From the NCBI GenBank assembly GCA_024653205.1, contig JANLFO010000008.1, positions 1 to 64,000 on the forward strand: a stretch of 64,000 bases of DNA, written 5' to 3'. The notes under the pieces are model-generated. The model made no database searches, was not told the DNA's origin, and was given only the letters and a program-made list of their open reading frames with translations. This document shows positions 4,351 to 24,363 of this stretch, piece by piece. Each line of letters starts with the position of its first letter. Position 1 is the stretch's first letter. The position numbers and the translations under genes are program-made. The stretch comes from Clostridia bacterium. Lineage in GTDB: Bacteria; Bacillota; DSM-521; Neomoorellales; SLTJ01.

Positions 4351-5814
4351 ATGTTCGCCGTTACCGGCGCCACCGGACACCTGGGCAACAACCTGGTCCG
4401 GATTCTGGTTTCCCGGGGCTATGCGGTCAGGGCCCTGGTTCTCCCCGGCGACAGCCTGCGGCCGCTGGAGGGCCTTGAGGTGGAGATCGTGGAGGCTGAC
4501 GTAAGGGACCTGACTTCCCTGGAGCGGGCCTTCAGGGGAGCGGAGGGGGTCTTTCACCTGGCCTCGGTGATTTCCCTCGCGCCCGGAGATGAGCCCTTGC
4601 TGGAGGCGGTGAACGTGGGAGGCACCGCCAACGTGGTGGAGGCCTGCCGCCGGGCAGGAGTCAGGCGGCTGGTGTACGTGAGTTCCATCCACGCCCTCCG
4701 CGAGCCTGCCGAGGGCGGCACCGTGGACGAGACCTGCTTTGCGGGTCCTGCCGATCTCCCCGACGCCTATTCCCGGACCAAGGCCCGGGCTACGGAGTTG
4801 GTACTGGGGGCCTCCGGTGAGGGGCTGGAGTGCGTGGTGGTGGCACCCACGGGACTTCTCGGCCCGTACGACTATGCGCCCTCGCTGATGGGAAGGGCCA
4901 TTCTGGACGTCGCCCGGGGAAAGTTTGCCGTGACCTTCGACGGCGGGTACGATTTCGCCGATGCCCGGGATGTGGCCGAGGGAATAGTGGCCGCCTGGTT
5001 GCGGGGCCGACCGGGGCAGCTCTACCTCCTCCCCGGAGAGTGGGTTTCGGTGCCGTTCCTGGTGAACACCGTATGCCGGCTGGCGGGCAGGCCGTTGCCG
5101 CGGGTTCACCTGCCGTATTCCTTCATGATGGGCGTGGTGGGGTTGGTGGAGGCCGTGGGCTACCGCTGGATAAACCGGCAGGCGCTGAAGATCCTGGCCA
5201 CCCGGGCCGTAATCTCCTCGGAGAAGGCCCGCTCGGAGCTGGGCTACCGCTCACGGCCGGTGGCGGAGAGCCTTGAGGATACCCTGGCCTGGTTCGAGGC
5301 CCAGGGGTGGCTGCGGGGGGTGCGGGCCCGGGCGGTCGCCAGGCAGGCGGGAAGCGCCGGCGGATTTGAGGCCCTGGTGATGACCGCCAACCGGGTAATC
5401 GAGGCCGGTCAGGCCTGCCTCAACCTCAAGCTCCGGGGGAGCCGGCTCACCGGCGCCGAGGCCAACGTCCTCATGTTTCTGTACACTCACGGCGAGGGAG
5501 TAATCCAGGAGGATATCGTAACCGGCATGGAGCTCACCCGGCCGGCGATCTCGCGCACTCTGAGAGAGCTGGAACGCAAGGGCTACGTGCACCGCTACCC
5601 GGCAGAAAGGGACCGCCGCTCCCGCCAGGTGTTTCTTACCGACAGGGCTTTCGAGGAAAAGGCACGGGTGGAGGAGGCCTATCGCCAGATTGTGGCCGCG
5701 GCCACGGAAGGCATACCGGAGGAGAAGGCCGGGGAGTTCCTGGGCTACCTCCGCCGGGTGGCGGAGAACCTGGACGCCTACCGGAAGGAACTGAAGATGG
5801 ATAAGGCCGGATAG
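4351..5814 (+). CDS. NAD-dependent epimerase/dehydratase fused to a MarR-type DNA-binding domain
   Basis: Residues 1 to about 320 form an extended SDR: nucleotide-binding TGATGHLGNN at 5-14, SSIHAL as the Ser strand and YSRTK as the catalytic YxxxK. From about residue 345 the same frame continues into a winged-helix domain of MarR type (EEDIV-like helix, TRPAISRTLRELERKGYVHR recognition helix and wing, then RDRRSRQVFLT). Sugar-nucleotide or steroid-like substrates are possible for the SDR part, but none can be named. ATG 4351 follows GGGAGGCGG. No frameshift or stop separates the parts. It is the first gene inside the element, 157 bases from the left site, and converges on the LigD polymerase gene. 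Confidence 0.8.
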   Translation: MFAVTGATGHLGNNLVRILVSRGYAVRALVLPGDSLRPLEGLEVEIVEADVRDLTSLERAFRGAEGVFHLASVISLAPGDEPLLEAVNVGGTANVVEACRRAGVRRLVYVSSIHALREPAEGGTVDETCFAGPADLPDAYSRTKARATELVLGASGEGLECVVVAPTGLLGPYDYAPSLMGRAILDVARGKFAVTFDGGYDFADARDVAEGIVAAWLRGRPGQLYLLPGEWVSVPFLVNTVCRLAGRPLPRVHLPYSFMMGVVGLVEAVGYRWINRQALKILATRAVISSEKARSELGYRSRPVAESLEDTLAWFEAQGWLRGVRARAVARQAGSAGGFEALVMTANRVIEAGQACLNLKLRGSRLTGAEANVLMFLYTHGEGVIQEDIVTGMELTRPAISRTLRELERKGYVHRYPAERDRRSRQVFLTDRAFEEKARVEEAYRQIVAAATEGIPEEKAGEFLGYLRRVAENLDAYRKELKMDKAG

Positions 5815-5824
5815 GTCGGGACCG

Positions 5825-6748
5825 TTACCCCCGTATGGAGTAGAGCAGACGGTCCAGGCCCTGCTCCTCCCGCAGCACCGGGGCAAAGACGTCGCCGCGC
5901 CGGGCCAGCATCTCGGGTACGGTGGCCAGGTTGAAACGGAGCGGGTCCAGCTTTTCGTCCTCCAGTTCTTCCCAGGTAAGGGGAAAGGATACGGGCGCTC
6001 CGGGGAGGGGGCGCACGCTGTACACCGAGGCAATGGTCTTGCCGCGCCCGTTTTGGCCCACGTCCAGGTAAACCCGTCCCGAGCGCCGCCGGACCGCCCT
6101 TTCGAGGGTGCAGAGGTCCGGCCAGGCGGCCACGCACCAGCGCGCCAGGGCGGCGAGGGCCCGCCGGACTTCGGCATAGGTGTAGCGGGGAGCCAGGGGC
6201 AGGTAGAGGTGCAGGCCGGTGGCCCCGGAGGTTTTGGGGTAGCACCTCAATCCCAGCCGGTCGAACAGGCGGCCGAGGCGCCGGGCCAGCAACCGGGCCT
6301 CGGCGAAACCCGCCGGCGGGGCGGGGTCGAGATCTACCACGGCAACCGTGGGATGGTCGGGCGCGTTCCACCGGGAGAGCCAGGGATGGATCTCTATCGA
6401 GCCTTGGTTTACCACCCAAAGCAACCCTGCCAGGTCGGCGACCAGCACGTAGGTAACCGCCGGGCGGCGGCCGCCGGAAGGCAGCGGCACCCGGGGCAGC
6501 CAGTCGGGCGCGTATTCCGGGCACTCTTTCTGGTAAAAGGAAGGGCCCCGGATGCCTTCCGGGAAACGGTGCAGCACCAGCGGACGTCCGGCGAGGTGCG
6601 GCAGGAGATAGGAGCTCACCTCCGCGTAGTAGCGCAGGAGATGGGCCTTGGTATAGCCTTCGTCCGGCCAGAACACCTTCTCGGGGTTACTCAGCCCCAC
6701 TTCTAAGCCCTCTACCTTTACGGTCAACCTTGTCCGCGTACTCTCCAC
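5825..6748 (-). CDS. LigD-type DNA polymerase/primase domain protein (NHEJ)
   Basis: Stand-alone homologue of the polymerase domain of bacterial LigD (archaeo-eukaryotic primase fold), which fills gaps during non-homologous end joining. Seen in the 307 residues: LSNPEKVFWPDEGYTK near the N-terminus, the catalytic pair in VVDLDPAPP, SGATGLHLYLPL, and DVGQNGRGKTIASVYSVRP, in family order. The GTG at 6748 gives the expected N-terminus; the frame is open further upstream, but that part does not resemble the family. It is divergent from the ligase gene (72-base gap) and Ku follows that, so LigD is split into separate genes here. No nuclease (phosphoesterase) domain is visible. Confidence 0.88.
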   Translation of the reverse strand: MESTRTRLTVKVEGLEVGLSNPEKVFWPDEGYTKAHLLRYYAEVSSYLLPHLAGRPLVLHRFPEGIRGPSFYQKECPEYAPDWLPRVPLPSGGRRPAVTYVLVADLAGLLWVVNQGSIEIHPWLSRWNAPDHPTVAVVDLDPAPPAGFAEARLLARRLGRLFDRLGLRCYPKTSGATGLHLYLPLAPRYTYAEVRRALAALARWCVAAWPDLCTLERAVRRRSGRVYLDVGQNGRGKTIASVYSVRPLPGAPVSFPLTWEELEDEKLDPLRFNLATVPEMLARRGDVFAPVLREEQGLDRLLYSIRG

Positions 6749-6820
6749 GATGCTTAGATTTGCCGGGACGGTGCGGGGGAATACTTCCTCCGAGACTGCT
6801 TCGTTGAGGAGGGACGGTTC

Positions 6821-7762
6821 GTGGTCGGCCGGAACCTGGTGCCCATGGAGCCGGTAACCTGGCCGGCACCCTTCGACCACCCGGACTGGCTCTTCCAGCC
6901 CAAGTGGGACGGGGTAAGGATCCTCGCCCACGTTCGGGGGCCGGAGGTCCGCCTGATCAACCGGCGGGGCAGGGAGCGGACGGCCCACTATCCGGAAATC
7001 GTAGAAGGGGTTAGGGCGGTTCTTAGGGGCCAAAACGCGGTGCTCGACGGGGAGATGGTCGTGTTCTGGGAGGGGCGGCCGAGCTTCCCCCGGGTCATGC
7101 GGCGCGAGACGGCCGCACCCGGGGGACCGTCCCTGGCCGTACTCCGGCGTACCCTCCCCGCCACCTACATGGTCTTTGACCTCCTCCACCTCGACGGCCG
7201 TGAGCTGATCGGACTGGAGCTGGAAGCACGCCAGGAACTCCTTCGTCGGCACCTCGTCGCCGGCGAGCCGGTGCTGCTGACCGACAGCTTCGATCAGGGC
7301 AGCCGTCTTTTCGCCGCGGTGGAAGAAAGGGGATGGGAGGGTGTAGTGGCCAAGCGGCGGGGCAGCCCGTACCGGTTCGGGAAAAGCCCGCTGTGGCGCA
7401 AGATCAAGGTCAGGCGGCGCCAGCCCTGCGTGGTGGGCGGTTTCACGGTAGCCTCGGGGGGAGTGGTGGGGAGCCTGCTGCTGGGCGTGTGGCGGGAGCA
7501 GGACCTGATGTACGTCGGCCGGGCGGGAAGCGGCCTCGGCGGTGAGGAACGGGAGGCACTTGCCCGGGTTCTGGCGGAAACCGTGCAGCCGGAGTGCCCC
7601 TTCGATCCGGTCCCCCGCATGCGGGGGCCGGCCGTTCGCTGGGTGGCTCCCCTCCTCAGCGTACTGGTGGAGTACGGCGAGTGGACGGAGGGGCTGCACC
7701 TCCGCCACCCGGTGGTCGTGGGTTTCAATCCGGTGCCGGTCAGCGCCTGTCGGCTGCCGTAG
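6821..7762 (+). CDS. ATP-dependent DNA ligase (LigD/LigC ligase domain)
   Basis: The protein seals nicks using ATP. Of 313 residues, K28 in KWDGVR is the adenylated lysine (motif I); DGEMVVF (III), EGVVAKR (IV) and WRKIKV (V) follow, then a short OB-fold region (VVGGFTVASGG, LGVWREQDLMYVGRAGSG). This is the minimal size of NHEJ ligase domains. Start GTG 6821 lies 6-7 bases after GAGGAGGGA; ATG 6845 would remove eight residues. Its 3' end overlaps the 3' end of ku by 23 bases (convergent). With the adjacent polymerase and Ku it makes a full end-joining set inside the element. Confidence 0.92.
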   Translation: MVGRNLVPMEPVTWPAPFDHPDWLFQPKWDGVRILAHVRGPEVRLINRRGRERTAHYPEIVEGVRAVLRGQNAVLDGEMVVFWEGRPSFPRVMRRETAAPGGPSLAVLRRTLPATYMVFDLLHLDGRELIGLELEARQELLRRHLVAGEPVLLTDSFDQGSRLFAAVEERGWEGVVAKRRGSPYRFGKSPLWRKIKVRRRQPCVVGGFTVASGGVVGSLLLGVWREQDLMYVGRAGSGLGGEEREALARVLAETVQPECPFDPVPRMRGPAVRWVAPLLSVLVEYGEWTEGLHLRHPVVVGFNPVPVSACRLP

Positions 7763-8600
7763 CCGCCTTGCGGCCCCGGGCGCTGGCGCGTCCGGCCCCG
7801 GCGCGCCCGGCGCGCGCCGCGGGAGCTCGCTCCTTTTCCGCCTGCTCGATGCTGGCCCGCAGGGCCTCCATCAGGTCCACCACCTTGGCCGGCGCCGGAG
7901 CCGGAGGGACCACTACCTGGCGGCCGGCGATCTTGCCGCCGATCAGTTCTTCCAGGGCCCGGCGGTAGCCGTCGTGGTACTTTTCCGGTTCGAAGGGTGC
8001 GGAAAGGCTTTCCACCAGCCTCTTTGCCATGTCAAGCTCGCGGGGATCAAGGGCTTGCGGGTAATCGATCTCCGGCAGGTTTTCCGGCCGCCTGATCTCG
8101 TCGGCGTAGAGCATGGTTTCCAGCACCAGCGCCCGCCGGTATATCCTCACGCAGGCCAGGGATTCCCGCTGGCGCAGGGCCACCTTGGCCAGGGCCACCC
8201 GGTTGGTGTCGGCCATGGCCCGGTGGAGGAGGGCGTAGGCTTTCTGTCCGCCGTCTCCCGGCGCCAGGTAGTAGGGCCGGCTGAAATACAGGGGATCGAT
8301 TTCTTCCAGGCTCACGAAGTCGCTGATCTCGATGGCCCTGGTGGTGGGCAGGGGCAGAGAAGCCAGTTCCTCCTGCGTAACCACCACGAACTGGCCGCGG
8401 GCGTACTCGTAACCCCGAACGATCTCGTCGGCCCCAACGTCCGTCCCGCAGGCGGGGCAGCGCTTGGCGTAGGTAATGGGAGTATGGCACTTGCGATGCA
8501 GGAGGCGGAAGGAGAAGTCCTTCTCCTCCACCGCCGGATAGACCTTGACCGGGATGTTGACCAGGCCGAAGCTCAAGACTCCGTTCCAGATGCTGCGCAA
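7740..8600 (-). CDS. ku: DNA end-binding protein Ku
   Basis: Bacterial Ku homodimers thread onto double-strand ends and recruit LigD. The 286 residues begin with the family N-terminus RSIWNGVLSFGLVNIPVKVY, contain a CPACGTD cysteine pair and the core through about residue 250, and end in a basic Ala/Arg/Lys-rich tail (ARAGRAGAGRASARGRK) like the DNA-binding extension of B. subtilis-type Ku. Start TTG 8600 follows AAAGGACGG; the frame upstream to 8678 is not Ku-like. In B. subtilis, ku and ligD are expressed in the forespore under SigG; a possible promoter of that type lies at 8651-8680. Confidence 0.93.
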   Translation of the reverse strand: MRSIWNGVLSFGLVNIPVKVYPAVEEKDFSFRLLHRKCHTPITYAKRCPACGTDVGADEIVRGYEYARGQFVVVTQEELASLPLPTTRAIEISDFVSLEEIDPLYFSRPYYLAPGDGGQKAYALLHRAMADTNRVALAKVALRQRESLACVRIYRRALVLETMLYADEIRRPENLPEIDYPQALDPRELDMAKRLVESLSAPFEPEKYHDGYRRALEELIGGKIAGRQVVVPPAPAPAKVVDLMEALRASIEQAEKERAPAARAGRAGAGRASARGRKAATAADRR

Positions 8601-8650
8601 CCCTGTCCGTCCTTTCCCGTTGAGACAGCTCTGCACCGGGCCTCTAGGGA

Positions 8651-8680
8651 AAGTATTCTTCCTCGCGGCAAGTCCCATGC
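8651..8680 (-). promoter_or_regulatory. Possible forespore (SigF/SigG-type) promoter of ku
   Basis: On the minus strand GCATG (8680-8676) is followed after exactly 18 bases by AATACTT (8657-8651). The SigG pattern GnATR-N18-CATnnTA is met at the -35 and in spacing, with two mismatches in the -10. Transcription would begin about 45 bases before the TTG start of ku. The same AATACTT occurs at 6780-6786 before the ligase gene, but without a matching -35. Weak evidence. Confidence 0.25.
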
Positions 8681-8820: not shown

Positions 8821-10188
8821 CTAGCGGTCGAGGGCCCACCAGCCGATAACGCTGCCGCTGCGCGGCAGTCTGATCCCTTCGCGGGCCTCCAGTTCCCGGG
8901 CCCAGTCGCCCAGGGGGCAGGCGTGGTGGATTATCAGCGGCACGCTATGGGCCGGCAGCACGTCGTAAGGGAGGCCGTAGGCGGCAAAGGTGCGCTGCAT
9001 CTCGGCCAGGCTTTCCGCCGTATCCCAGGGAGTGGGGTGTATCAAACCGTGAACCGATCCCTCGCAGCTGGCGTAAGCCCAGTTGTCCGGAAACTCGTCC
9101 TTGAGCCGGCGCATGAGGTCTACGGCGGCAAGATTTGTTTGCCTGGTCGTTCCCTTGTTGAGGTTGCGCAGGATGCGGTCGTCGAAGGACTCCAGGCCCA
9201 CCGAGGCGAGGCGCAGCAAAATCCCCCTTTCCCGGGCACGCTTCAGAGCCTCGCGGGCGTTATGCTCCTGGCGGACGAACCAGTCGGCCCGCATCACCAG
9301 GTCGACCTGTGAGATCTTGAGGCCCCGGGAGGCGATTTCGTCCAACAGCCGGGGCAGCTGGGGCAAGGGATTCTCGTTGATGAGCTCGAAGGGTATCTTG
9401 CTTCCGTTTTCTTCCGGCAGGGCCCGAATTTGTTCTACCACCACCTCTATGGGGAACCTGCCCGCGTAACCCTTGTCGGTGGCCACGTCGCAGAAGCTGC
9501 AGCCGCGAAGCCTGACCGGGATGGAGCTCTGCTTGCCCAACGCCGTAGGGTAGTCTACGGCAATTTCCTTTGCCGCCACCGCGTAGGGGCAGCCCAGTTG
9601 CTGTATCACCTGGGCGCTTTCCACCTTAAGGGGGACAAGACTTCCGTTGTCTACCCGGTAAAGGTTATCCCAGCGCACGAAGCGGAAAAAGGCGGCATCC
9701 CAGGGCCGCGCCGGATTCCGGCCCCCGCAGGTAACGATTCCCGCACCTTCCGGGGGAAGCGCAGGGTTCTCTTCCTGCAGTACGGGAATAATCTGTTCCG
9801 CCGGCCCCTGTACGGCAAAACTGAAACACCGGTGATAGCCCTGGAAGCGGTGCGGCTCCAGGTCTTTTCCTTCCTCGCCGAGGAAGTCCACCGCCGCCTG
9901 GGGGCCGCCGAGGACGGTAGTGACCCCGTCCTGCTTGAAGGAGGCGGCGAGTTCGAAAAGCTCGGGCCGGCCGCTGAGGGTGGAAAAACCCACTACGGGC
10001 CTATCCTCGCCCAGGTAGGAGTAAATGGCCTTCCTGACCTCGGCGTGGGGCTCCTCTCCCGTGAGCGCCACCACCAGGCACTCGTAGGGGGTGTTCTCCT
10101 GGATTACGGTGGCCGCCAGCTGCGGGCCGAGCATGCCGTAAGTCTGACCCTGAAAGTAACTGGTGATGATGACCATCCTGGGACGCAT
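8821..10188 (-). CDS. B12-binding/radical SAM-like protein with an incomplete cysteine motif
   Basis: The 455 residues resemble cobalamin-binding radical SAM proteins: an N-terminal B12-binding-like Rossmann region (VVGFSTLSGRPELFELAASF, VLGGPQAAV), then a radical SAM-like barrel (RFPIEVVVEQIRAL, LRLASVGLESFDDRILRNLNKG). The cluster motif reads RLRGCSFCD: the CxxC is present, but Arg stands where the first Cys of CxxxCxxC would be. Either an unusual cluster ligand is used or the enzyme has lost SAM chemistry. Start ATG 10188 is preceded by GGAAAGGTGG. It lies downstream of the minus-strand uptake operon, 169 bases from the ATPase gene. Substrate unknown. Confidence 0.65.
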   Translation of the reverse strand: MRPRMVIITSYFQGQTYGMLGPQLAATVIQENTPYECLVVALTGEEPHAEVRKAIYSYLGEDRPVVGFSTLSGRPELFELAASFKQDGVTTVLGGPQAAVDFLGEEGKDLEPHRFQGYHRCFSFAVQGPAEQIIPVLQEENPALPPEGAGIVTCGGRNPARPWDAAFFRFVRWDNLYRVDNGSLVPLKVESAQVIQQLGCPYAVAAKEIAVDYPTALGKQSSIPVRLRGCSFCDVATDKGYAGRFPIEVVVEQIRALPEENGSKIPFELINENPLPQLPRLLDEIASRGLKISQVDLVMRADWFVRQEHNAREALKRARERGILLRLASVGLESFDDRILRNLNKGTTRQTNLAAVDLMRRLKDEFPDNWAYASCEGSVHGLIHPTPWDTAESLAEMQRTFAAYGLPYDVLPAHSVPLIIHHACPLGDWARELEAREGIRLPRSGSVIGWWALDR

Positions 10189-10357
10189 GGTGCGCGGCCA
10201 CCTTTCCCGGCTCGATCTGGCCCAAGCGCCTTTGCCGGCCGCATCCCGCCGTATCGCCTCCCCCAACTTAACACGAGCTTTGAGCCCGAGTCAATGGCAA
10301 ACCGGCCTCACGCTTCCCCCGAATGGCCCGCCTTCGGCAGGCAAGGGAGGCGGTTGA

Positions 10358-11188
10358 CTACTCGAAGGCGGAAGGCACTTGTACCTCCGCCGACTCCGGG
10401 CGGTGGGGTTCGATGCCCGACGATTCCACCGGCACGGCCACCCGGACCCCCGAGGAGGTGAAGTCCACCTGTATCGGCAGGTCGTACACCCGGCTCAGTA
10501 CGCGGTCACACAACACTTCTTCCGACGGGCCCATGGCCACGACGTGCCCGTCGCTTATCAGAGCACAGGAGTCGCAGTAGAGCAGCGCGAGGTTGGGGTC
10601 GTGAACGGTGAGGATGACGGTCAGGCCCTTTTCCCGCGCCAGGCGGCACACGGTGCGCATCACCCTCACCTGATTGTTCAGGTCGAGGTGGGCGGTGGGC
10701 TCATCCAGAAGCAATACGGGGGTGTCCTGGAATATGGCCCGGGCCAACAGGGTGAGCTGGCGCTCTCCGCCGCTCAGTTCCGGAAAGGGCCGGCTTGCGA
10801 GGTGCCCGATGCCCAGTTCGTTCATGACTGCCGCTGCCGCCTCTCGGTGCCTGGCGCTGGGCGCAGCGAAGGTGGGCAGTCTGGGCGCGATCCCCATCAG
10901 GGTGACGTCGATGGCGCGAAAAGGCAGGAAGGCGTCCGTGCCCTGAGGAACCACTGCCATCCTGAGCGCGAGATCCTTGCGCGCCATTTTGGAGATCTCC
11001 CGACCCTGAAACAGTATCCTGCCGCGCATGGGTCTGATGATCCCGTTAATGCACCGCAGCAGGGTAGACTTGCCCGAGCCGTTGCGCCCGAGTATTCCCC
11101 ACACCTTTCCGCCGGAAAAGCGCAGGTAGACGTCCCTGAGAACCGGGCGGCCGTTGTAGCCGCAGTAGAGCCCTTCTATCTCGATCAC
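10358..11188 (-). CDS. ABC transporter ATPase, FecE/BtuD type (uptake operon A)
   Basis: Cytoplasmic ATPase for the FecCD-type permease at 13527-14573. Residues show Walker A GRNGSGKST, Q-loop VVPQG, signature LSGGERQ, Walker B VLLLDEPTAHLDL and H-loop TVHDPN, complete and in order; 276 residues is usual. A C-terminal tail of about 25 residues after PIQVDFTSSG is not part of the fold. It is the last of five tightly spaced minus-strand genes starting at 15634, 7 bases after the stop of the preceding gene. The ligand is unproven; the ModE-like operator ahead of the operon suggests molybdate or tungstate. Confidence 0.88.
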   Translation of the reverse strand: MIEIEGLYCGYNGRPVLRDVYLRFSGGKVWGILGRNGSGKSTLLRCINGIIRPMRGRILFQGREISKMARKDLALRMAVVPQGTDAFLPFRAIDVTLMGIAPRLPTFAAPSARHREAAAAVMNELGIGHLASRPFPELSGGERQLTLLARAIFQDTPVLLLDEPTAHLDLNNQVRVMRTVCRLAREKGLTVILTVHDPNLALLYCDSCALISDGHVVAMGPSEEVLCDRVLSRVYDLPIQVDFTSSGVRVAVPVESSGIEPHRPESAEVQVPSAFE

Positions 11189-11194: not shown

Positions 11195-12409
11195 TCACCG
11201 GCAACCCGCCAGTCCGGGGTTTTGAGTCTCCGAGCCTGCGGCTCCGGGCAGGGCTTCGAGGTCCAGGACCGCCATGGCCCCGTGGTTGTAAAGGGCCCGG
11301 GCAAAGCACTCTACCGCGACCTCACAGCCCGAGGTCGCGTGCGTGAGGATGCTCCTGTTCCCCACGGCGGCCGTCCTGCCTCCACGGTACCTGTGCTGCT
11401 GGGCAATGGTAGCCTGGGGCATTTCCCTGAATACGCCCGAAAACGGGAACGGTTTCTCCTCATCGTCCTCCGCGTAGTAAGGGAAGCCGGGAGGGTATCC
11501 GTTTTCCACAAGGTGCCTTCCGGTAGTGATTGCCAGGTACTGGTTGTCGCCCACCGTGTAACAATACCACCGGCAGGTGTTGGTGATCCTGTGAAAGGGG
11601 AGGGGGAAGGTGGCGCACCCCACTCCCTCGACCAGTATCAGGGCCACCTTTGTGCTGCCTGCCAGCATCCCGGAGACCGCACCGGCTACCGAAGTGAGGT
11701 CGGCGAGTCCCTGAGAGGCGAGCGGTACGGGGCAGTGCAAAGGGATCTCCCGTTCGTATTTCGGCACCAGATAGATGGGCCGGGCACTACTCCCCAGTCC
11801 CCTTAGAACATAACCTTCCTCCGCAACCAGCAGGTAATCCGGGAAGCGGCGATAGAAGAGGAGGTTTCCCCCGAACTCTTTCTGGAAGGATACGCGGTCG
11901 ACAATACGAGCGACCCCCGGCAAGCGGCGTAAGAAAGCCAGGTCCCTCGGCGCAGGTCGGAACAGGCCGGCGTATTGGGCCGGCATTCCGCCTGCTACCG
12001 CCAGGCCTTCCAGACCGGTAAGGTCTACCTGGCCCCGAAGCGGTACCATGCCCCCCAGGCCTACGATGACCGGGGTGAAGTCCGTCTGCACCAGGAAGCG
12101 GCCTATTTCGGCGAATACCTGGTCCACCACCGCCGCGCGCTGCGCGGTGTCCGTCGGGGTAAAGGCGGATACCAGGTAAGGGGTAGCGTAGATCAGCATC
12201 ATGAAGCTCGGGCGGTACCCGTCGACCACATCCAAGGCCACGTCGGTAACCCAGCGGGCAGAGGAAGCATCCAGGTCGCCCGGGAAGGGATGGGCCTTGA
12301 GGAGGGATGCCAGGACCGGCAGCAGAGGGTGCTCCGGCTGCACCTCCCTGCCCCTCTCGAGATCGACCGTAACCTGCCAATCCGTAGCATCTATCACCGC
12401 CAGCTTCAT
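11195..12409 (-). CDS. Conserved protein of unknown function paired with a radical SAM enzyme
   Basis: I do not recognise a named family. The 404-residue soluble protein has no signal peptide. Blocks worth noting are VALILVEGVGCATFPLPF, TAAVGNRSILTHATSGCEVAVECFARALYNHG and, near residue 75, SFMMLIYATPYLVSAFTPTD followed by a helix, which faintly recalls alkaline-phosphatase-superfamily proteins (weak). Its ATG overlaps the stop of the upstream radical SAM gene (ATGA), so the two are translationally coupled. A decayed second copy of the same pair, fused by deletion, lies at 20811-21402 beside another uptake operon, so the pair belongs with this transporter type. SD GGAGGTG supports the start. 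Confidence 0.75.
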   Translation of the reverse strand: MKLAVIDATDWQVTVDLERGREVQPEHPLLPVLASLLKAHPFPGDLDASSARWVTDVALDVVDGYRPSFMMLIYATPYLVSAFTPTDTAQRAAVVDQVFAEIGRFLVQTDFTPVIVGLGGMVPLRGQVDLTGLEGLAVAGGMPAQYAGLFRPAPRDLAFLRRLPGVARIVDRVSFQKEFGGNLLFYRRFPDYLLVAEEGYVLRGLGSSARPIYLVPKYEREIPLHCPVPLASQGLADLTSVAGAVSGMLAGSTKVALILVEGVGCATFPLPFHRITNTCRWYCYTVGDNQYLAITTGRHLVENGYPPGFPYYAEDDEEKPFPFSGVFREMPQATIAQQHRYRGGRTAAVGNRSILTHATSGCEVAVECFARALYNHGAMAVLDLEALPGAAGSETQNPGLAGCR

Positions 12410-13467
12410 AAGGCCCCCACCTCCGGATTGAGCGCGGCTCCTGGTGCCGAACGCTCCGGGCCTTCTGCGGAATGCCACCTGACCGGAGGCCGGGCAATCC
12501 TGATGGGGTGCCCGCAGATACCGCACTTCTGTCCGTCGTCCAGGCGGTGGGCGACGAGTTTTCCTCCGCACCCTCCAAGGCTTATGCGCTCCATGACTTC
12601 GGTCCCGCATTCGGGGCAGTAGGTGCTGACCCAGCGGGAGCCCACAAAATTACCGAAATACACGTAGGGGAGATCCCGGCACACGTCCCGGAGCATAGCG
12701 CTGATTCGGCCGACGTCGGGTCGCTCACGGGAGGCCATCCTGTACTCGGGCAGAAGCCGAAAGACATGCCAGGGTATCCGGGAGTCCAAGCGTTGCAAGA
12801 AGGCGGCGATCTCGGGGATCTCCGAGTCGTTAAGCCCCTCCACTATCGGCGTGGTCACCTCCACGTGGGTAAGGCGGTGGAAGATCTCTATGTTGCGCAT
12901 CACTATGCCCGCCGACGGAACACCCACGTGGCGCCGGTAAAACTCATCCCTTACCGACTTGAGACTCACGTTTACAAAGGCGAAGGACTCACCCATCACC
13001 CTGGTTATTTCCGGAGTGGCGTAGCCGTTGGTGAGTATTCCTACCGGAATACCCGCTCTACCCGCCGTTTTGGCCAGCTCCAGAAGGGAAGGAAGGATCA
13101 CGGTTGGCTCATTCAGCGCGAAAGCGATGTTGTGGCACCCGCTTTGGGCTGCCAGGGCCGGCACGCGTTCCGGGCTGAGTTCGTGCACCAGAAGCCGTGC
13201 AGGATTGCTTCTGACGAGGTAAGCGTTGGAGCAGTAGTCGCAATCGAAATTGCATCCCGCACCGCCCAGTACCAGCGTGCGGCTTCCCGGCTGAAAGTGA
13301 AAGACGGGAAGCGATTCGATGTGACTTACGTAGACCGAGGAATAGCGCCGCGGAAATACCTCCTCCGGCAATTCTGCCTGGGCGTCTCCGGGAGCCCGGT
13401 ACATTCCGCAGAATCCCGTGCGCCCGCCGTCCAGCTGACAGCGTCTTTCGCAGAAAGCGCACTCCAT
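12406..13467 (-). CDS. Radical SAM protein, AmmeMemoRadiSam/PflA-activase-like, in uptake operon A
   Basis: The 353-residue protein has an N-terminal cysteine set (CAFCERRCQLDGGRTGFCGMY) as in AmmeMemoRadiSam-type enzymes, the SAM cluster motif CNFDCDYC (CxxxCxxC) at about residue 75, TNGYATPEI in the barrel, and C-terminal cysteine pairs (YCPECGTE, KCGICGHPI) that may hold zinc or a second cluster. Start ATG 13467 follows GGAGG by 9 bases. It lies 59 bases after the permease and is coupled to the 404-residue partner. The substrate is unknown; placement suggests it modifies the imported ligand or a transporter partner, which is inference. Confidence 0.82.
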   Translation of the reverse strand: MECAFCERRCQLDGGRTGFCGMYRAPGDAQAELPEEVFPRRYSSVYVSHIESLPVFHFQPGSRTLVLGGAGCNFDCDYCSNAYLVRSNPARLLVHELSPERVPALAAQSGCHNIAFALNEPTVILPSLLELAKTAGRAGIPVGILTNGYATPEITRVMGESFAFVNVSLKSVRDEFYRRHVGVPSAGIVMRNIEIFHRLTHVEVTTPIVEGLNDSEIPEIAAFLQRLDSRIPWHVFRLLPEYRMASRERPDVGRISAMLRDVCRDLPYVYFGNFVGSRWVSTYCPECGTEVMERISLGGCGGKLVAHRLDDGQKCGICGHPIRIARPPVRWHSAEGPERSAPGAALNPEVGAL

Positions 13468-13526: not shown

Positions 13527-14573
13527 CTATCCCCACCAGAGGCTTCGCCGGGCGCCCAGGAGGTAGCCAAGGAAGGGCGCGCCGATGCAGGAAGTGACTA
13601 TGCTGATGGGGATCTCGGCGCCGCCAACGCTTCGGGCCAGGGTATCCATGGCGGCAAGAAATCCCGCCCCCATGAAGGCAGAGAAGGGCATCAGAACCAC
13701 GTGGTCTGTGCCCACTACCAGCCGGGCCAAATGCGGCACCACCAGGCCTACCCAGGCGATAGTTCCAGTGGAGGAAACCGATGAGGTTACCACCAGGGTG
13801 CCGAAGAAGATGAAGCAGGCCTGGTAGCGCCTCACATTCAGCCCCAGGGAGAGGGCATCGTGCTCGCCGGCGGCAAGTATGTTGAGCTTCCACCTCAGCA
13901 GGACCAGCACCATCACCCCCAGGCAGACCGGGGGTAAGGTCCAGGCAACCCGGCCCCAGTCGGCGCTGTAGAATCCGCCCATGGTCCAAAAGATGATAGA
14001 AGGGAGGGTTTCGTAAGGATCGGCGATGTATTCCAGAAACGACAGCGCTGCCGAGAAGAGCGAGGAAACGACCACGCCCGCTACCACCATGGTGGTTAAA
14101 GAGCGGCCATCCCCACGGCTCCCCACCTTCCATGAAATGGCAACTGCCGCCAAACCGAAGGCAAATGCACAGAGGGGAATTGCCAGCGGCTGGTGGGTTT
14201 CGGCTCCCAGCGTGATTGCCAGCGCCGCTCCAAACCCGGCCCCGGCGGAAACGCCCAGAATGTCCGGCGACACCAGCGGGTTGCGGAACAGGCCTTGAAA
14301 GGTAGTACCCGCGGCCCCCAGGGCGGCTCCCACCGCCGAGCAAAGGATAACGCGGGGGAGCCGTACTTCCCAGAAGACCGTGGCGGCCGTCTGCGCCTCC
14401 TTGCTGGCCGCGAGAGTTGCCGGGTCCGCCAACCACACGGAGAGGAGATCACCTATGCTTAGGCGATAACGGCCCACAGCGAGCGACACCAGGGCGGCCG
14501 CCAGAAATATGCCCATCCCCCACAGGAGAGAGACGCGCTGGTCCGAGAATTGTCTGGGCACCGGCAAGGCCAC
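13527..14573 (-). CDS. FecCD/BtuC-type ABC transporter permease (uptake operon A)
   Basis: Integral membrane subunit of a type II importer, 348 residues, about ten membrane segments. The family signature is clear: GTTFQGLFRNPLVSPDILGV, SAGAGFGAAL, then a C-terminal IAWVGLVVPHLARLVVG loop that docks the ATPase and GAEIPISIVTSCIGAPFF-like end. The GTG start overlaps the TAG stop of the binding-protein gene. Clear paralogues lie at 18965-19993 and 28430-29440. Known family ligands include siderophores, haem, cobalamin and, in Haemophilus MolBC, molybdate/tungstate. Confidence 0.92.
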   Translation of the reverse strand: MALPVPRQFSDQRVSLLWGMGIFLAAALVSLAVGRYRLSIGDLLSVWLADPATLAASKEAQTAATVFWEVRLPRVILCSAVGAALGAAGTTFQGLFRNPLVSPDILGVSAGAGFGAALAITLGAETHQPLAIPLCAFAFGLAAVAISWKVGSRGDGRSLTTMVVAGVVVSSLFSAALSFLEYIADPYETLPSIIFWTMGGFYSADWGRVAWTLPPVCLGVMVLVLLRWKLNILAAGEHDALSLGLNVRRYQACFIFFGTLVVTSSVSSTGTIAWVGLVVPHLARLVVGTDHVVLMPFSAFMGAGFLAAMDTLARSVGGAEIPISIVTSCIGAPFLGYLLGARRSLWWG

Positions 14574-15634
14574 TACAGCGTGCCCCCGACCTCACTAAAC
14601 GTCCGGCCGTAGAATTCCTTATAGAACGAGTTGGCCTCCTGGAGCGGATCCAGGTCGGCGAAGAGGTCGGGGTGGAGGATCTTGGCCAACCACACCAGAC
14701 CGAGTACCGCCTGGGGCGAGGGGTAGTCCCACGGGGTCAGATCGGACGGGAACCAGAACACGTTCTTGTTCTGGACTGCCTTGATATTCTTCCACCGCGG
14801 GTCCTGCAGAATCTTTTCCGGGCTGGTATCGCTGGCATACTTTACCACCACGATGACGTCCGGGTCCCATTGGATCAACTGTTCGGGCGACACCTCTACC
14901 CATCCGCCCTTCAGGTCGCCGGCCGCGTTTCTGCCGCCTGCGGCTTCGATCAGAAAGTGCTGGTACATCTCTCCCGAAGCTGTGGAGAGGGTCCCCATGG
15001 GTCCTACCAGGTATACCTTGGGCCGGGCGGAGCCCTCCAGCGCCTGGGTCTCAGACTGGATCCTGTCCAGCATCTGCCGATAGTACTGGTTAAACCGTTC
15101 TGCCCTTTCCTCCCGACCCAGGGCGCGGCCGAGATTGGACATGGTATCCATAAGCTGGTCCAGGTCTTCCGCTACCACCCCGAAGACGGTCAGCCCCTTG
15201 CCCGCGAGTTGTTCCACCATCTCCTTGTTGCGGCCCGGGACCAGAACCAGGTCGGGTTTCAAGGCGATAATCTGCTCTACGTTGATTTCCTTGGGACTGC
15301 CTACCGCGGGCAGGTCCTTGAAACCGGGGTGAAGGGCCAGGAAGAATTGATTTGTCCTGGAGGGGGTGTCGATGCCTACCAACCTGTCCTGAACACCTAG
15401 GGCATAGAGAAAATGCGTGGCAATGCCGTAGCTCACGGCGATACGCTCCACCTTCTGGGGCACTTCCACCTGTCGCCCTATCCCGTCGGTGACGGTGACG
15501 GTTTGCGGCCGGTTTTCCTGACCGGTGTCCGCTGACGGTGGACTCTGCGGGGTTCCCGCACATGCCGGAAGAAACGCAGCCAGCACTATCAGAGCGAGAA
15601 CGGATACTGCCAGTCTTCTGGTCCCCGGTTTCAA
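14573..15634 (-). CDS. ABC transporter substrate-binding lipoprotein (uptake operon A)
   Basis: Periplasmic-binding-protein-like (PF01497, FecB/BtuF class) lipoprotein, 353 residues. A signal peptide with lipobox FLPAC precedes QTVTVTDGIGRQVEVPQKVERIAV, the usual N-terminal strand of the family; VEQIIALKPDLVLV and SPEQLIQWDPDVIVV are the two matching lobe motifs. Start TTG 15634 has GGAGG eight bases upstream; the open frame beyond it is not conserved. It is the first gene of the minus-strand operon, 209 bases after the operator at 15843-15866. Confidence 0.9.
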   Translation of the reverse strand: MKPGTRRLAVSVLALIVLAAFLPACAGTPQSPPSADTGQENRPQTVTVTDGIGRQVEVPQKVERIAVSYGIATHFLYALGVQDRLVGIDTPSRTNQFFLALHPGFKDLPAVGSPKEINVEQIIALKPDLVLVPGRNKEMVEQLAGKGLTVFGVVAEDLDQLMDTMSNLGRALGREERAERFNQYYRQMLDRIQSETQALEGSARPKVYLVGPMGTLSTASGEMYQHFLIEAAGGRNAAGDLKGGWVEVSPEQLIQWDPDVIVVVKYASDTSPEKILQDPRWKNIKAVQNKNVFWFPSDLTPWDYPSPQAVLGLVWLAKILHPDLFADLDPLQEANSFYKEFYGRTFSEVGGTL

Positions 15635-15842
15635 ATTGTTTTCCTCCTCCCAGGTACTGATTTCCGCGGCTCCCCGCGGGGTTGCGTCCGTGTGGCGCGC
15701 AACGGCGTGCCCGACCGGCGGCCAATCAAGGCTTGTCTCTGCAGAAACCACCTCCAGCTGCAGGCACCGAGATGCACGGTTCCTCTGCGGGATTGCGGAC
15801 GGCTCGGGCCCGGCCTGCCGGCAGGCAAACCGGGTGCCTCGC

Positions 15843-15866
15843 CGTTATGCCGAGTCTAGCATAGCG
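15843..15866 (-). promoter_or_regulatory. ModE-like operator, site 1, over the promoter of uptake operon A
   Basis: Dyad CGTTATGC-N8-GCATAGCG. On the minus strand TTGACC and, 17 bases on, TAGACT form a promoter whose -10 falls inside the dyad, as expected for a repressor site. Architecture (8-8-8, outer CG, inner TATRY) equals the other four sites in the window and, from memory, the E. coli modA operator CGTTATAT-N8-ACATAACG. Confidence 0.7.
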
Positions 15867-16119: not shown

Positions 16120-16143
16120 CGCTATGTCTAAATAAACATAGCG
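16120..16143 (+). promoter_or_regulatory. ModE-like operator, site 2, upstream of the DUF364 gene
   Basis: Perfect dyad CGCTATGT-N8-ACATAGCG. TTGACC at 16105-16110 and CTAAAT at 16128-16133 are 17 bases apart, so the -10 lies in the spacer of the dyad. The DUF364 gene starts 51 bases further on. Confidence 0.72.
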
Positions 16144-16194: not shown

Positions 16195-16986
16195 ATGATG
16201 ATCGACCGGATCATAAGAGCCGCACTGCCGTCGGCTGCCGGCAGACGCGTCCAGGATGTCCGGCTGGGCCTGGGCCTGTGCGGGGTCATGCTGGATGACG
16301 GTTCCTGCGGGGTGAGCTTTGTCTTTCGCAGCGAGATTACCACTCCGCATTGCGCAGTGGTGGACGATCAGGGTGCCCTCGCGGGACGCGAGGTGACCGA
16401 GGTTATACCCTGGGCCGCCGACTATCGCAACCTGGCCCGCGCGTCGATCGGTGTGGCGGTCTTGAACGCGCTTAGCCAGAAGAGCCTGCCCTCGGGGGCG
16501 GCCGAGGGGGATGCACTGGACTGGTTGGAGATAAGCCCCGACGACGTGGTGGGAATGATTGGCTATTTCAAGCCTCTGGTTGAGCCGGTGCGCCAGAAGG
16601 CCAAAGCATTGATGATTTTCGAGCGCCGCCCGTCCGACGACGACCCGGACATTTATCCCGACTGGGCAGAACGGGCTCTGCTGCCGCAGTGCTCTGTGGT
16701 GATTATTTCCGGCACCACCATTATCAATAAGACTGTCGATCAAATCCTGGAATGGTCTACCGGCGCGCGGGAGATAGCCCTGGTGGGCCCCAGCGTGCCT
16801 TTTTATCCCGAAGCCTACCGGGACTCCGGTATTACTCTCCTCGGTGCCTCGCAGGTGGGCCCGGGTTCGGAGCGCGTTATCCTCGATCTGATCGGTCAGG
16901 GAGGCGGGGGGCTCAGTCTTTTCGGCCACCTGAGAAAGGTTACCGTCCGGCTTCCCAGGTGTTTCCAAGGAACTCAGGGCAGATAG
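16195..16986 (+). CDS. DUF4213/DUF364 (putative heavy-metal chelation) protein
   Basis: The 263-residue cytoplasmic protein has an N-terminal DUF4213-like part (IRAALPSAAGRRVQDVRLGL, then the TTPHCAVVDD segment) and a C-terminal DUF364 Rossmann-like domain with VGMIGYFKPLVEP and VVIISGTTIINKT motifs. DUF364 proteins are often found beside metal or cofactor transporters; the chemistry is not established. Start ATG 16195 (followed by a second ATG) has GAGGGGAGGAG upstream. It is the first gene after operator site 2 and precedes a ruined ATPase gene, so this is probably a collapsed uptake operon. Confidence 0.85.
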   Translation: MMIDRIIRAALPSAAGRRVQDVRLGLGLCGVMLDDGSCGVSFVFRSEITTPHCAVVDDQGALAGREVTEVIPWAADYRNLARASIGVAVLNALSQKSLPSGAAEGDALDWLEISPDDVVGMIGYFKPLVEPVRQKAKALMIFERRPSDDDPDIYPDWAERALLPQCSVVIISGTTIINKTVDQILEWSTGAREIALVGPSVPFYPEAYRDSGITLLGASQVGPGSERVILDLIGQGGGGLSLFGHLRKVTVRLPRCFQGTQGR

Positions 16987-17057
16987 CCTTCCCAGAATGG
17001 GGGAGACAATCGCTCACCGGGGCTGCGAAAACTCGATTTCTGGCGAGGTGCGGAGCC

Positions 17058-17600
17058 GTGTCCGATAGAGGGTGGGAGCCTGTCACTCTGGTTCCGCTGG
17101 GACAGGTGGAATCGGATTTTACCCTTTCTGATTCCCCGGAGTATAGCCGGGAAGCCTTCGGAGCCCGTTCGGGAGAAATCACGGTCCTGCTGGGTCCCAA
17201 TGGGTGCGGCAAGACCACTCTCATACGCTGCCTGCAAGGCCGGCTACGCCCCCAGAGCGGGAACGCCACCTGGCGAGGGCGCACGCTGCTGGACATGTCC
17301 CACGTGCAAATTGCCCGAACCATGGCCGTAGTTCCCCAGGAGCATACACCTCTCTTCCCTTTCACGGTTGACCCCAACCTCGCCTATACCTACGCCGATC
17401 ACATCGTCCTCCTGGCCAAGGGCAGGGTGGCGGCTCAAGGCCGCCCTCCGGACGTAATGACCGAATCCCACCTGAGTCAGGCGTATGAGTGTCCGATTCG
17501 GGTTGCCTCTTTCTCCGGCTTTGTGGAGGAGGGCGTCGGGGGCGCCGTTATTAGCCCCAAGTCGGTCGCCCCGCAGCAATATATAAGCGTGGCTCAATGA
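17058..17600 (+). pseudogene. ABC transporter ATPase with internal deletion
   Basis: An open frame of 180 codons retains Walker A (LGPNGCGKTT) and the Q-loop region (VVPQEHTPLFPFTV), then jumps directly into the H-loop tail (DPNLAYTYADHIVLLAKGRVAAQG). About 100 residues holding the signature LSGGE and Walker B are absent, so no ATP hydrolysis is possible. The segment before Walker A is also poor. The intact paralogues at 10358 and 19974 have TVHDPN or TLHDPN at the corresponding place, so the deletion probably ran between short ACGGTT-like matches. The frame was kept, but the product cannot work as a transporter ATPase. Confidence 0.85.
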
Positions 17601-17868
17601 TTGAACCGGGGCCATGGAACGGTCGGGCTTGGCCGAAGTGAGCGGAGCAGACATCGTAGCGGAGCGGTTGCGGAGAAGGGGCTAGACTTTAGGAGGGTGA
17701 ACGCGGGACGGCGTTATGCTGGAGGGGACATAGCGAGACCGGGCTCGCAGGTGGGCACATGAAGATCAGAAGGGAGGAACCGATCAAATGGGCTAATCCG
17801 ATCGAAGGGGTACCAAGCCAAGCAAAGCATTGACGCTGGCAACATCAACAAGCAGGGGGTAAGGAAAT
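17601..17868 (+). other. Leader region of uptake operon B
   Basis: 268 bases between the ruined ATPase and the binding-protein gene. It carries operator site 3 at 17712-17735. A 24-codon frame at 17760-17834 with no family resemblance may be chance. No riboswitch motif was recognised. Confidence 0.4.
17712..17735 (+). promoter_or_regulatory. ModE-like operator, site 3, upstream of uptake operon B
   Basis: Dyad CGTTATGC-N8-ACATAGCG with the same 8-8-8 spacing as the other sites. It lies 134 bases before the binding-protein start. The overlapping promoter is not obvious. Confidence 0.65.
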
Positions 17869-18927
17869 GTGAAAGGACGCAGCTGTAAAGTCAGTGCGTT
17901 GATCCTGACCACAGTTCTGTCTCTGGTATGGCTGGCGGGAGGTTGCGGTCAGCCCGCTACCGGGCCGGCGCAGGGAGGGGCGAAGCCTCAGACCATTACG
18001 GTCACCGACCAGCTGGGTCGTCAAGTAGAACTGCCCGCCAAAATCGAAAAGGTGGCGGCCTTTCACCATTTCGGTGCCAAGCTGATCTACGCCATGGGGC
18101 AGCAGGACAAGCTGGTGCACCAGGCTTTACTCGGCGTGGAAGCCAAGGCGATGGCCAAGGTCGATCCCAAGTTCGCAGCCCTGCCCAACCTGGAGGCCGA
18201 GGGACACGATGTCAATATCGAAAGTGTGGTGGCCCTTGGGCCCCAGGTGGCCTTTGTCTACAGTTCGTTTGATCAAAAGGAACTGGAGGCGCTCGAAAAC
18301 GCCGGCATTAAGGTGATCGGCCTCAGGGGCGAAACCCTGGAGGAGAGCTATGAGGCGGCCAGACTGGTGGGTAAAGTGCTGGGGTGCGAAGACAAGGCAG
18401 AGGCCTATATAAAGTACTGTCAAGACCTGGTGAAAATGGTTCGGGATCGGCTGGCCGACCTGCCTGCCGACCAGCGTCCAAAAGTGCTGTGCGCCGGTCC
18501 CAAGAGCATCTTCACCGCAGCCACCGGGGAAATGCTGCAGTCGACCATGATTGAGCTGGCGGGTGGCAAGAACGTGGCCGCCGAACTCAAGGGGTTCTGG
18601 GCTTCGGTGTCGCCGGAACAGATCGTGCAGTGGAACCCCGACTACATCTTACTGGGTTCCTCGCTGGGCAAGGTTTCCGTGGGTGACGCCCTCAAGAATC
18701 CCGGCCTCCAGACGGTCAAGGCAGTCAAAGAGGGCAAGATATATGCCATTCCCTCGAATATAGGCTGGTGGGACTTCCCGGCCCCACAGTGCGTGCTGGG
18801 CATCGTTTGGATGGCCAAGACCCTGCACCCGGATAGGTTCCGGGATGTCGACCTGACCAAGATGGCCGACGATTACTACAGCCGGTTCTGCGGGTATTCC
18901 TTCACCGCTCTGGGCGGCAAGCTTTAA
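17869..18927 (+). CDS. ABC transporter substrate-binding lipoprotein (uptake operon B)
   Basis: FecB/BtuF-class binding protein, 352 residues, with signal peptide and lipobox LAGGC. It shares QTITVTDQLGRQVELPAKIEKVA and VSPEQIVQWNPDYILL with the operon A protein, and both end with a TALGGKL / SEVGGTL-like tail. The start GTG 17869 follows GGGGGTAAGGA; an out-of-frame ATG overlaps it. It is followed by a permease, an ATPase and the remnant of the radical SAM pair, the same set as operon A in a different order and orientation. Confidence 0.9.
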   Translation: MKGRSCKVSALILTTVLSLVWLAGGCGQPATGPAQGGAKPQTITVTDQLGRQVELPAKIEKVAAFHHFGAKLIYAMGQQDKLVHQALLGVEAKAMAKVDPKFAALPNLEAEGHDVNIESVVALGPQVAFVYSSFDQKELEALENAGIKVIGLRGETLEESYEAARLVGKVLGCEDKAEAYIKYCQDLVKMVRDRLADLPADQRPKVLCAGPKSIFTAATGEMLQSTMIELAGGKNVAAELKGFWASVSPEQIVQWNPDYILLGSSLGKVSVGDALKNPGLQTVKAVKEGKIYAIPSNIGWWDFPAPQCVLGIVWMAKTLHPDRFRDVDLTKMADDYYSRFCGYSFTALGGKL

Positions 18928-19993: not shown

Positions 19994-20786
19994 CCTGGTG
20001 GCCGGCTACGGGGAAACGCAAGTACTGCACGGCGTGGACCTGGTAGTCGAGGAGGGTCAGGTCTGCGCCCTGCTGGGTCGCAACGGTTGCGGAAAGACGA
20101 CGCTGCTGCGCTGTATAAATGCCATCCTCTCTCCCAGGAGCGGCTCGGTAAGGGTTAGAGAGCAGGAGGTACGGCACCTATCTCGTCCCCAGATTGCCGG
20201 GCTGATCAGCATGGTGCCTCAGAGCGCGACGACCGTGTTTGCTTCCACGTGTTTGGAGATGGTTCTACTGGGGGAAACGCCCCGGTTGCGGGTGTGGTCC
20301 TCACCGGGGAAAAGCGCGCGTCGACGGGCCCGGCAGGTGCTGGCAGAAATCGGCATCGAGCACCTGGCAGAGCGACCGTTCACCGAGCTTTCCGGCGGGG
20401 AACGCCAGTTGGTCCTGCTGGCCCGGGCTTTTTTCCAGGACACCCCGGTCATGCTCCTGGATGAGCCCACTTCTCACCTGGATTTCTGCAATCAGCACCG
20501 GGTTATGCATCTCATGCGCCGCACGGCGAAGATGCGGGGCGTAACGGTGCTAGTGACGCTGCACGATCCGAATCTCGCCTTCTACTATTGCGACTGCGTA
20601 GCGATGTTGAGGGACGGCAGGGTGGTGGCCCAGGGCCCCACCGGCCGGGTAATGAAGGACGAAAACCTCAGGCAAGTTTACGGCGACAACATCAAGACCG
20701 ACATCACCAGCGTCGGCCTACCCGTAGTAATTCCGAGAAGCTGCGTGGGGGACGGGAAGCGAGAGCGGTTCTCTTTCTCGGCCTAA
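19974..20786 (+). CDS. ABC transporter ATPase, FecE/BtuD type (uptake operon B)
   Basis: 270 residues with complete motifs: Walker A GRNGCGKTT, Q-loop MVPQS, signature LSGGERQ, Walker B VMLLDEPTSHLDF and H-loop TLHDPN. It is closest in the window to the operon A ATPase, sharing the GIEHLAERPFTELSGGERQL / GIGHLASRPFPELSGGERQL block and an FFQDTP / IFQDTP stretch. Start GTG 19974 has GAGGAGGTG nine to ten bases upstream, preferable to GTG 19962, which lies within that site. Confidence 0.9.
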   Translation: MSIRVDSLVAGYGETQVLHGVDLVVEEGQVCALLGRNGCGKTTLLRCINAILSPRSGSVRVREQEVRHLSRPQIAGLISMVPQSATTVFASTCLEMVLLGETPRLRVWSSPGKSARRRARQVLAEIGIEHLAERPFTELSGGERQLVLLARAFFQDTPVMLLDEPTSHLDFCNQHRVMHLMRRTAKMRGVTVLVTLHDPNLAFYYCDCVAMLRDGRVVAQGPTGRVMKDENLRQVYGDNIKTDITSVGLPVVIPRSCVGDGKRERFSFSA

Positions 20787-20810
20787 CACTCTGTGGGAGG
20801 GGTACCTAGT

Positions 20811-22479: not shown

Positions 22480-22516
22480 ATCTTTCCTTTAAGCCCGAGC
22501 GGCGGGAGGCAGGAGC

Positions 22517-24346: not shown

Positions 24347-24363
24347 GCAGCGAGGGAGCATAT

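Follow-up and report, generated by a model that had tools for sequence, protein, structure and literature searches.

A radical SAM protein and a 404-residue partner accompany FecCD-type importers and probably belong to a molybdenum/tungsten supply system

Why should a radical S-adenosylmethionine (SAM) enzyme and a protein of no recognised family be encoded inside an importer operon? The question is raised by operon A of a Clostridia bacterium (assembly GCA_024653205.1, contig JANLFO010000008.1, positions 1 to 64,000; this whole stretch of 64,000 nucleotides is called the window below), in which the genes for a radical SAM enzyme and for a 404-residue protein, here called the partner, lie between the genes for a FecCD-type permease and an ATPase. 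The initial annotation assigned the pair to the uptake system and suggested that it might process an imported organic ligand. We compared the locus with related loci of other genomes. The answer that we favour, with a probability of about 0.78, is that the pair belongs to a molybdenum/tungsten (Mo/W) supply system, because of the riboswitches and ModE-like palindromes that appear to regulate such operons, the relatedness of the importer to HI1471 of Haemophilus influenzae, the presence of MOT1, FmdE and DUF364 among the neighbours, the recurrence of FecCD near the pair, and the tight co-variation of its two proteins.

Association of the pair with FecCD-type importers

Operon A encodes a PF01032 permease, a PF01497 binding protein and a PF00005 ATPase, the set that defines a FecCD-type (Type II) importer. 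The pair is flanked upstream by the permease and the binding protein and downstream by the ATP-binding cassette (ABC) ATPase, all on the reverse strand (Table 1), and the stop codon TGA and the start codon ATG of the two genes overlap as ATGA (the junction reads ...GCC TTATGA AGCTG...); both the overlap and the placement between permease and ATPase, as read in the initial annotation, agree with the coordinates. The partner had been described as an unrecognised protein of 404 residues, and this description held: no match to Pfam or NCBIfam was obtained at E<=1, and no Pfam family was common to its approximately 36 homologues. The decayed second copy of the pair that had been noticed beside operon B was recovered as well. 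Its positions 20808-21044 resemble residues 7-87 of the radical SAM protein (51% identity) and its positions 21018-21345 resemble residues 235-334 and 340-385 of the partner, the latter match being split between two frames and interrupted by a stop codon. The central part of the pair has been lost, and the CxxxCxxC motif with it. The intact operons of three related loci (L047, L064 and L065) share the order of operon B, namely the binding protein, the FecCD permease and the ATPase followed by the pair, and the operon B proteins are 52-62% identical to those of these loci.

The sample of related loci consisted of 36 non-redundant loci, each with a full-length partner. Duplicate records (L037, L039, L043-L046, L049 and L051; n = 8) were counted once, and three of 39 non-redundant loci (L066, L067 and L069) were dropped because they have only a fragment of the partner. 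A contig scan with a single partner protein, made before a profile was available, gave no match; the profile of nine partner sequences then detected 34 loci in the searched contigs, with hosts titled Bacillota, Deltaproteobacteria, Actinomycetota, Chloroflexota and Spirochaetales. Among the hosts are Ammonifex thiophilus, a metagenome-assembled genome of Moorella mulderi, Syntrophomonas wolfei subsp. methylbutyratica and a Desulfuromonas. The partner is rare, being present in 13 of the 398 genomes from the phylum and in 2 of the 61 genomes from near relatives, with the source genome included in each count.

A radical SAM gene lies near the partner gene in 34 of the 36 loci; the other two are truncated, the L055 contig opening shortly ahead of the partner and that of L041 within a first partner copy. 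An FecCD gene was found within 3.3 kb of the partner in 28 loci, and a gene for a binding protein near it also in 28. When at least 3 kb of sequence was present on both sides, FecCD was found in 22 of 23 loci, L030 being the sole exception. The claim that the pair belongs to an uptake system is thus supported, and the pair does not sit mostly away from transporters in other genomes. Since the 14 partner genomes (approximately 33.9 Mb in total) contain 66 FecCD genes, or about one per 510 kb, an FecCD gene would be expected by chance within about 3.3 kb in roughly 2% of cases, and the observed proximity is far beyond this expectation. The distance correlations, calculated for the window and 26 loci, mark the pair as the unit: r was 0.905 between the radical SAM protein and the partner, 0.556 between the partner and FecCD, and 0.522 between the radical SAM protein and FecCD, and none of 999 permutations reached these three values.

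In L063, the pair occupies a single open frame of 766 residues, in which an internal start is possible. The gap between the two genes is at most 45 bases in 30 of 34 loci, which makes it unlikely that the precursor of a ribosomally synthesised and post-translationally modified peptide is encoded between them. The two proteins thus probably form a closely linked enzyme of two parts. Two divergent copies of the partner are present in each of L024, L040, L041, L056 and L068, which suggests paralogues with distinct roles.

Regulatory signals, importer relatives and the likely metal

The window and all 36 loci were scanned with Rfam. The riboswitch for the molybdenum or tungsten cofactor (Moco/Tuco; RF01055) was found in half of the loci (18 of 36). 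Sixteen loci carry it upstream of the operon and in the same orientation; in L023 its position is between the partner and FecCD, and L059 has two copies on the opposite strand. By inspection, the P3 stem is absent in 15 of the 16 upstream copies (the L063 copy was not classed), and the L023 copy has P3. The consulted portion of Regulski et al. 2008 (PMC2408646) connects P3-lacking riboswitches with tungsten-cofactor genes and reports transport genes and genes of unknown function in Syntrophomonas wolfei; the text of the paper nowhere uses the words 'radical SAM'. Two further riboswitch observations were made. In L073, the only two Moco riboswitches found in the genome (2176-2296 and 8446-8565) lie in a row of genes for large repeat proteins that appear to be exported (the one scanned has Big_2), and in L033 a Moco riboswitch (16709-16922) directly precedes a class I methyltransferase, in a cluster that recurs near the pair in other loci.

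The palindrome CGYTATRY-N8-RYATARCG occurs five times in the window, compared with 0.24 expected from shuffled sequences, an expectation that is too favourable because the window itself supplied the sites from which the pattern was derived. Independent support for the palindrome comes from a molybdenum hydroxylase operon, moeA and the ModE consensus of Escherichia coli. When up to three mismatches were allowed, ten sites were found genome-wide (one of them poor) against 0 for the reversed control. Three palindromes lie 0.15-1.6 kb before the molybdenum hydroxylase operon, the large subunit of which has MoCoBD domains, and one lies about 0.3 kb before moeA elsewhere in the source genome. The architecture of the 24-base palindrome fits the E. 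coli consensus ATCGNTATATA-N6-TATATANCGAT, as given in the consulted portion of PMC545781. In 47 related stretches, the strict palindrome was found four times, as against 0 or 1 in each of ten simulations: L042 has two, both after the partner, L060 has one before an operon for a TonB receptor, a methyltransferase and FecCD, and L056 has one approximately 8.6 kb from the partner.

The importer also has a relative associated with molybdate. Among proteins of known structure, the operon A permease matched HI1471 of H. influenzae best (231 bits), followed by a heme permease (175) and BtuC (132), and the binding protein matched an 'iron complex' protein (186 bits), an unnamed protein (130) and HI_1472 (115). 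We take HI1471 and HI_1472 to be MolB and MolA, respectively. MolBC-A, an FecCD-type (Type II) molybdate/tungstate importer that is like operon A in architecture, takes up bare molybdate, and MolA binds tungstate too (PMC4031551, consulted portion); this portion mentions no radical SAM enzyme or partner, whereas operon A has both. To judge from this relatedness, the regulatory signals and the neighbours, the importer of operon A may bind and transport molybdate or tungstate. One could instead regard the operons as ordinary importers of iron siderophores, heme or cobalamin with the pair as a passenger, since the named NCBIfam families nearest by score are BtuC/FecCD and the binding protein has its best structural match in a protein annotated for iron complexes. 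This explanation is very improbable in view of the Mo/W-type riboswitches and palindromes, the MOT1, FmdE and DUF364 neighbours and the position of HI1471 as the nearest solved permease; moreover, neither the window nor any of the 36 loci gave a cobalamin riboswitch at the gathering score.

Genes near the pair were examined in the related loci. A MOT1-type molybdate transporter is present in three loci (L030, L042 and L052, each of which was scanned). In L030 and L042 it adjoins the pair, and FecCD was not found on the stretch, the contig of L042 ending 0.96 kb past the partner; L052 has both MOT1 and FecCD. The importer beside the pair can thus be exchanged. FmdE is present in three loci, all three of which were scanned. 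Proteins with TrmO_N are present in five loci (L032, L056, L057, L060 and L068), and in L057 one copy (7332-8216) is a fusion of TrmO_N and FmdE, the only such fusion, and the second is TrmO_N alone. DUF364 (PF04016, putative heavy-metal chelation), the co-occurrence of which had been proposed for checking, adjoins the window operons and is present in seven other loci; it is absent from the rest of the loci clustered, and so is accessory. Its context includes molybdate/tungstate transport and pterin- or siderophore-like chemistry, according to the consulted portion of the paper on a DUF364 structure (PMC2954201). A class I methyltransferase lies near the pair in six loci, and TonB receptors are present in five (two of which were Pfam-scanned).

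These neighbours bear on the earlier suggestion that the pair processes an organic ligand imported via FecCD, thereby freeing molybdenum or tungsten inside the cell. Such a role would suit the presence of importer and pair in one operon and the TonB-type receptors of the five loci, one of which scores 222.5 against a cut-off of 223.5 for a siderophore-receptor model. We nevertheless consider it improbable, because the relative of the importer carries bare molybdate and because MOT1 can replace FecCD, as seen in L030 and L042. Of the shared function that had been deduced from two associations with FecCD importers, the membership of an uptake system is supported. The ligand-processing role is so far a suggestion, and the regulatory signals point to molybdenum/tungsten supply.

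Several observations weigh against the assignment of the pair to Mo/W supply. In eight of the 36 loci FecCD was not found; contig ends truncate most of these, though not L030; in L070 and L061, no transporter was found among the proteins tested; and in L035 and L062 the radical SAM and partner genes are on opposite strands. The window itself has no RF01055 at the gathering score or at E<=5, and RF01055 was found in none of the 12 loci from Desulfobacterota (Deltaproteobacteria), of which only one (L060) has either this riboswitch or a strict palindrome. Because strict palindromes are few, most loci without the riboswitch show no metal signal. RF01055 is present in all 13 of the partner genomes that were searched. 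It is common in the phylum, however (116 of 199 genomes), so that its presence alone says little and its position is the evidence. The two best ModE-like proteins of the source genome score 79.8 and 69.3 bits with TIGR00637, below the cut-off of 98.5, and the better of the two is a single-domain protein in a frame of 111 residues. The iron-complex annotation of the best structural match of the binding protein also counts here, as does the result that no molybdoenzyme was seen among the neighbours scanned.

Fold, family placement and possible chemistry of the pair

The PF04055 domain and the CxxxCxxC motif place the first protein of the pair in the radical SAM superfamily. The motif was invariant in 14 sequences, together with four N-terminal and five C-terminal cysteines. 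The best NCBIfam match was TIGR04337 (AmmeMemoRadiSam), with 160.1 bits (E 6.2e-47, residues 8-329) against a cut-off of 220. In the AmmeMemoRadiSam system, the partners are AMMECR1 and Memo. If the pair were a relative of this system that carries out protein modification, with the importer or a molybdoenzyme as possible targets, the rank of TIGR04337 as best match, which recurs in L063 (151.5 bits), would be explained; however, both scores are under the cut-off, and the adjacent partner has no Pfam match to AMMECR1 or Memo, which were not searched for elsewhere in the genome. We regard this explanation as quite improbable. The AmmeMemoRadiSam protein is the best-scoring named relative of the radical SAM protein, and its partners differ from the one found here.

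The partner was modelled with AlphaFold2 (AF2) from an alignment of 36 sequences (predicted local distance difference test score, pLDDT, 91.5; predicted template modelling score, pTM, 0.91). Sequence searches of the PDB with the partner had given chance-level matches only. The best Foldseek match of the model was phosphonoacetate hydrolase (1ei6, E 9.0e-6), and with VIA residues 1-251 superposed on residues 135-407 of the 1ei6 chain (Z 10.2, root mean square deviation 3.9, 224 aligned); the next VIA matches were relatives of nucleotide pyrophosphatases with Z 8-9, where Z 7-8 is common for unrelated models. A single hhalign comparison of the partner profile with PF01663-type proteins of other genomes yielded P 5.3e-6 (residues 10-262); the set of the latter had been picked by a script and includes at least one member (L078) that is not a phosphodiesterase. 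The core fold of the alkaline phosphatase superfamily covers about two thirds of the partner, and the model resembles a derived form of this fold.

Members of the superfamily have the metal ligands D-x3-H and DH and a Thr/Ser nucleophile. In one pairwise profile alignment, the partner of the window has a gap opposite the D of D-x3-H, Ser opposite its H, and Leu-Gly opposite DH. The partner thus shares the fold of phosphonoacetate hydrolase and nucleotide pyrophosphatases over residues 1-251, but the metal ligands are replaced or gapped, and it is therefore probably not a phosphatase. The N-terminal region of the superfamily, which bears the nucleophile, was not aligned in native order, and the C-terminal third of the partner (about residues 252-385), with the invariant residues G350, H357, G361, E367, C368 and Y374, has no assigned fold.

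Two other structural explanations were considered and set aside. Motifs made a circular permutation of the partner attractive, in which its C-terminal third would be equivalent to the N-terminal part of alkaline phosphatases that it lacks. It was not supported: the comparison limited to the C-terminal part yielded P 0.13, rotation lowered the profile score from 52.6 to 46.3, the rotated sequences had no convincing PDB or Pfam match, and the isolated C-terminal model had a pLDDT of 59.5. A role as a glycyl radical enzyme does not agree with the predicted fold, and no glycyl motif was seen.

How the parts may work together can be outlined as follows. When molybdate/tungstate or the pterin cofactor is scarce, a block on the genes would be lifted, the sensor acting through the ModE-type palindrome in the source genome and being the Moco/Tuco riboswitch in 16 of the 36 relatives. 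The cell would then make the MolBC-like FecCD importer and the pair together. The partner may hold an anionic substrate, such as an oxyanion, a phosphorylated pterin or a metal chelate, on which the radical SAM protein would carry out its chemistry. As to the chemical step, we tentatively favour the synthesis or remodelling of a Mo- or W-carrying small molecule.

Nearly as likely is a role in which the pair acts on the pterin cofactor itself, with repair, salvage or remodelling of molybdopterin or tungstopterin at low cofactor levels, and importers are near only via a common signal. In L030, the riboswitch lies directly before the genes for the radical SAM protein, the partner and a MATE exporter, and FecCD was not found there; the fold relatives of the partner include nucleotide pyrophosphatases and phosphodiesterases; and the type of transporter varies, as with MOT1, while the pair stays. 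This role, however, leaves the importer adjoining the pair in 28 of the 36 loci to be accounted for by the signal, no cofactor-synthesis gene was seen among the neighbours scanned, and the radical SAM protein is far under the cut-off of the MoaA GTP 3',8-cyclase model TIGR02666 (36 against 284 bits). A more specific version of the small-molecule step, which we consider rather doubtful, is that the pair makes a Mo/W metallophore, a chelator formed by radical SAM chemistry, exported, re-imported when loaded, and switched on at low tungsten or molybdenum cofactor. Export would perhaps proceed via MATE, which follows the pair in L030, and return via FecCD and, in hosts that have an outer membrane, a TonB receptor. 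A search of the open-access literature with terms of the 'molybdophore' type gave no such system among the matches listed.

Syntrophic and acetogenic anaerobes need tungsten and molybdenum. To our knowledge, the uptake routes Mod, Tup, Wtp and MolBC need no enzyme. A conserved pair under cofactor- or metal-sensing control in many hosts would imply a hitherto unknown chemical step in Mo/W acquisition or in cofactor upkeep. The statement that no pathway of this kind has been described found agreement in the open-access literature, where no description of the pair was present among the matches listed, which is weak evidence of absence. The gene set can now be named in the cultured hosts A. thiophilus and S. 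wolfei subsp. methylbutyratica, and opens the question of Mo/W chelators in anaerobes.

Features of the window and minor observations

The coordinates of the features discussed are collected in Table 1.

Table 1. Positions in the window of the pair, its relic, the importer operons and the ModE-like palindromes
Feature	Positions	Strand	Remarks
ABC ATPase, operon A	10358-11188	-	PF00005 106.8 bits
Partner, 404 residues	11195-12409	-	Predicted derived alkaline-phosphatase-superfamily fold; no sequence family
Radical SAM enzyme	12406-13467	-	ATG start (MECAFCERRC...); open frame reaches TTG 13488; PF04055 73.5 bits
FecCD permease, operon A	13527-14573	-	PF01032 282.3 bits; best PDB match 2nq2 HI1471, 231.3 bits
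Substrate-binding lipoprotein, operon A	14573-15751	-	PF01497 129.9 bits; HI_1472 third PDB match, 114.7 bits
ModE-like palindrome before operon A	15843-15866		CGYTATRY-N8-RYATARCG
ModE-like palindrome before DUF364	16120-16143		CGYTATRY-N8-RYATARCG
DUF364/DUF4213 protein	16195-16986	+	PF04016 129.1 bits; PF13938 62.9 bits
ModE-like palindrome before operon B	17712-17735		CGYTATRY-N8-RYATARCG
Substrate-binding lipoprotein, operon B	17869-18927	+	PF01497 107.2 bits
FecCD permease, operon B	18965-19993	+	PF01032 287.2 bits
ABC ATPase, operon B	19962-20786	+	NCBIfam ABC ATPase matches
Decayed radical SAM and partner relic after operon B	20808-21345	+	Two frames, internal stop
ModE-like palindrome before operon C	27503-27526		CGYTATRY-N8-RYATARCG
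Operon C, third FecCD/ATPase/binding-protein cluster	28430-31399	+	PF01032 283.9 bits; PF00005; PF01497 76.4 bits
Fifth ModE-like palindrome	33899		CGYTATRY-N8-RYATARCG

Some further genes lie around the three operons. Downstream of operon A, a B12-type radical SAM protein of 481 residues without a good named family is encoded at 8821-10266 (reverse strand), and no tblastn match to it was found in the related loci among the matches listed. Directly after DUF364, an apparent decayed ABC ATPase lies at 16752-17600 (forward strand), in which the Pfam match stops after 80 of the 137 positions of the profile and the frame then jumps to an ATPase-like tail. The relic after operon B is followed at 21922-26596 (forward strand) by an importer of the energy-coupling factor type (PF09819, dual ATPase and CbiQ) and a MATE exporter. 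The region of operon C (27555-33573, forward strand), behind its ModE-like palindrome, also encodes Big_5/CopC-like and S-layer-type proteins. Farther away, frames at 5251-8678 resemble by eye a set for non-homologous end joining (LigD polymerase, ligase and Ku), and a c-di-GMP-I-GGC riboswitch (69.8 bits) is present at 57153-57239 on the forward strand.

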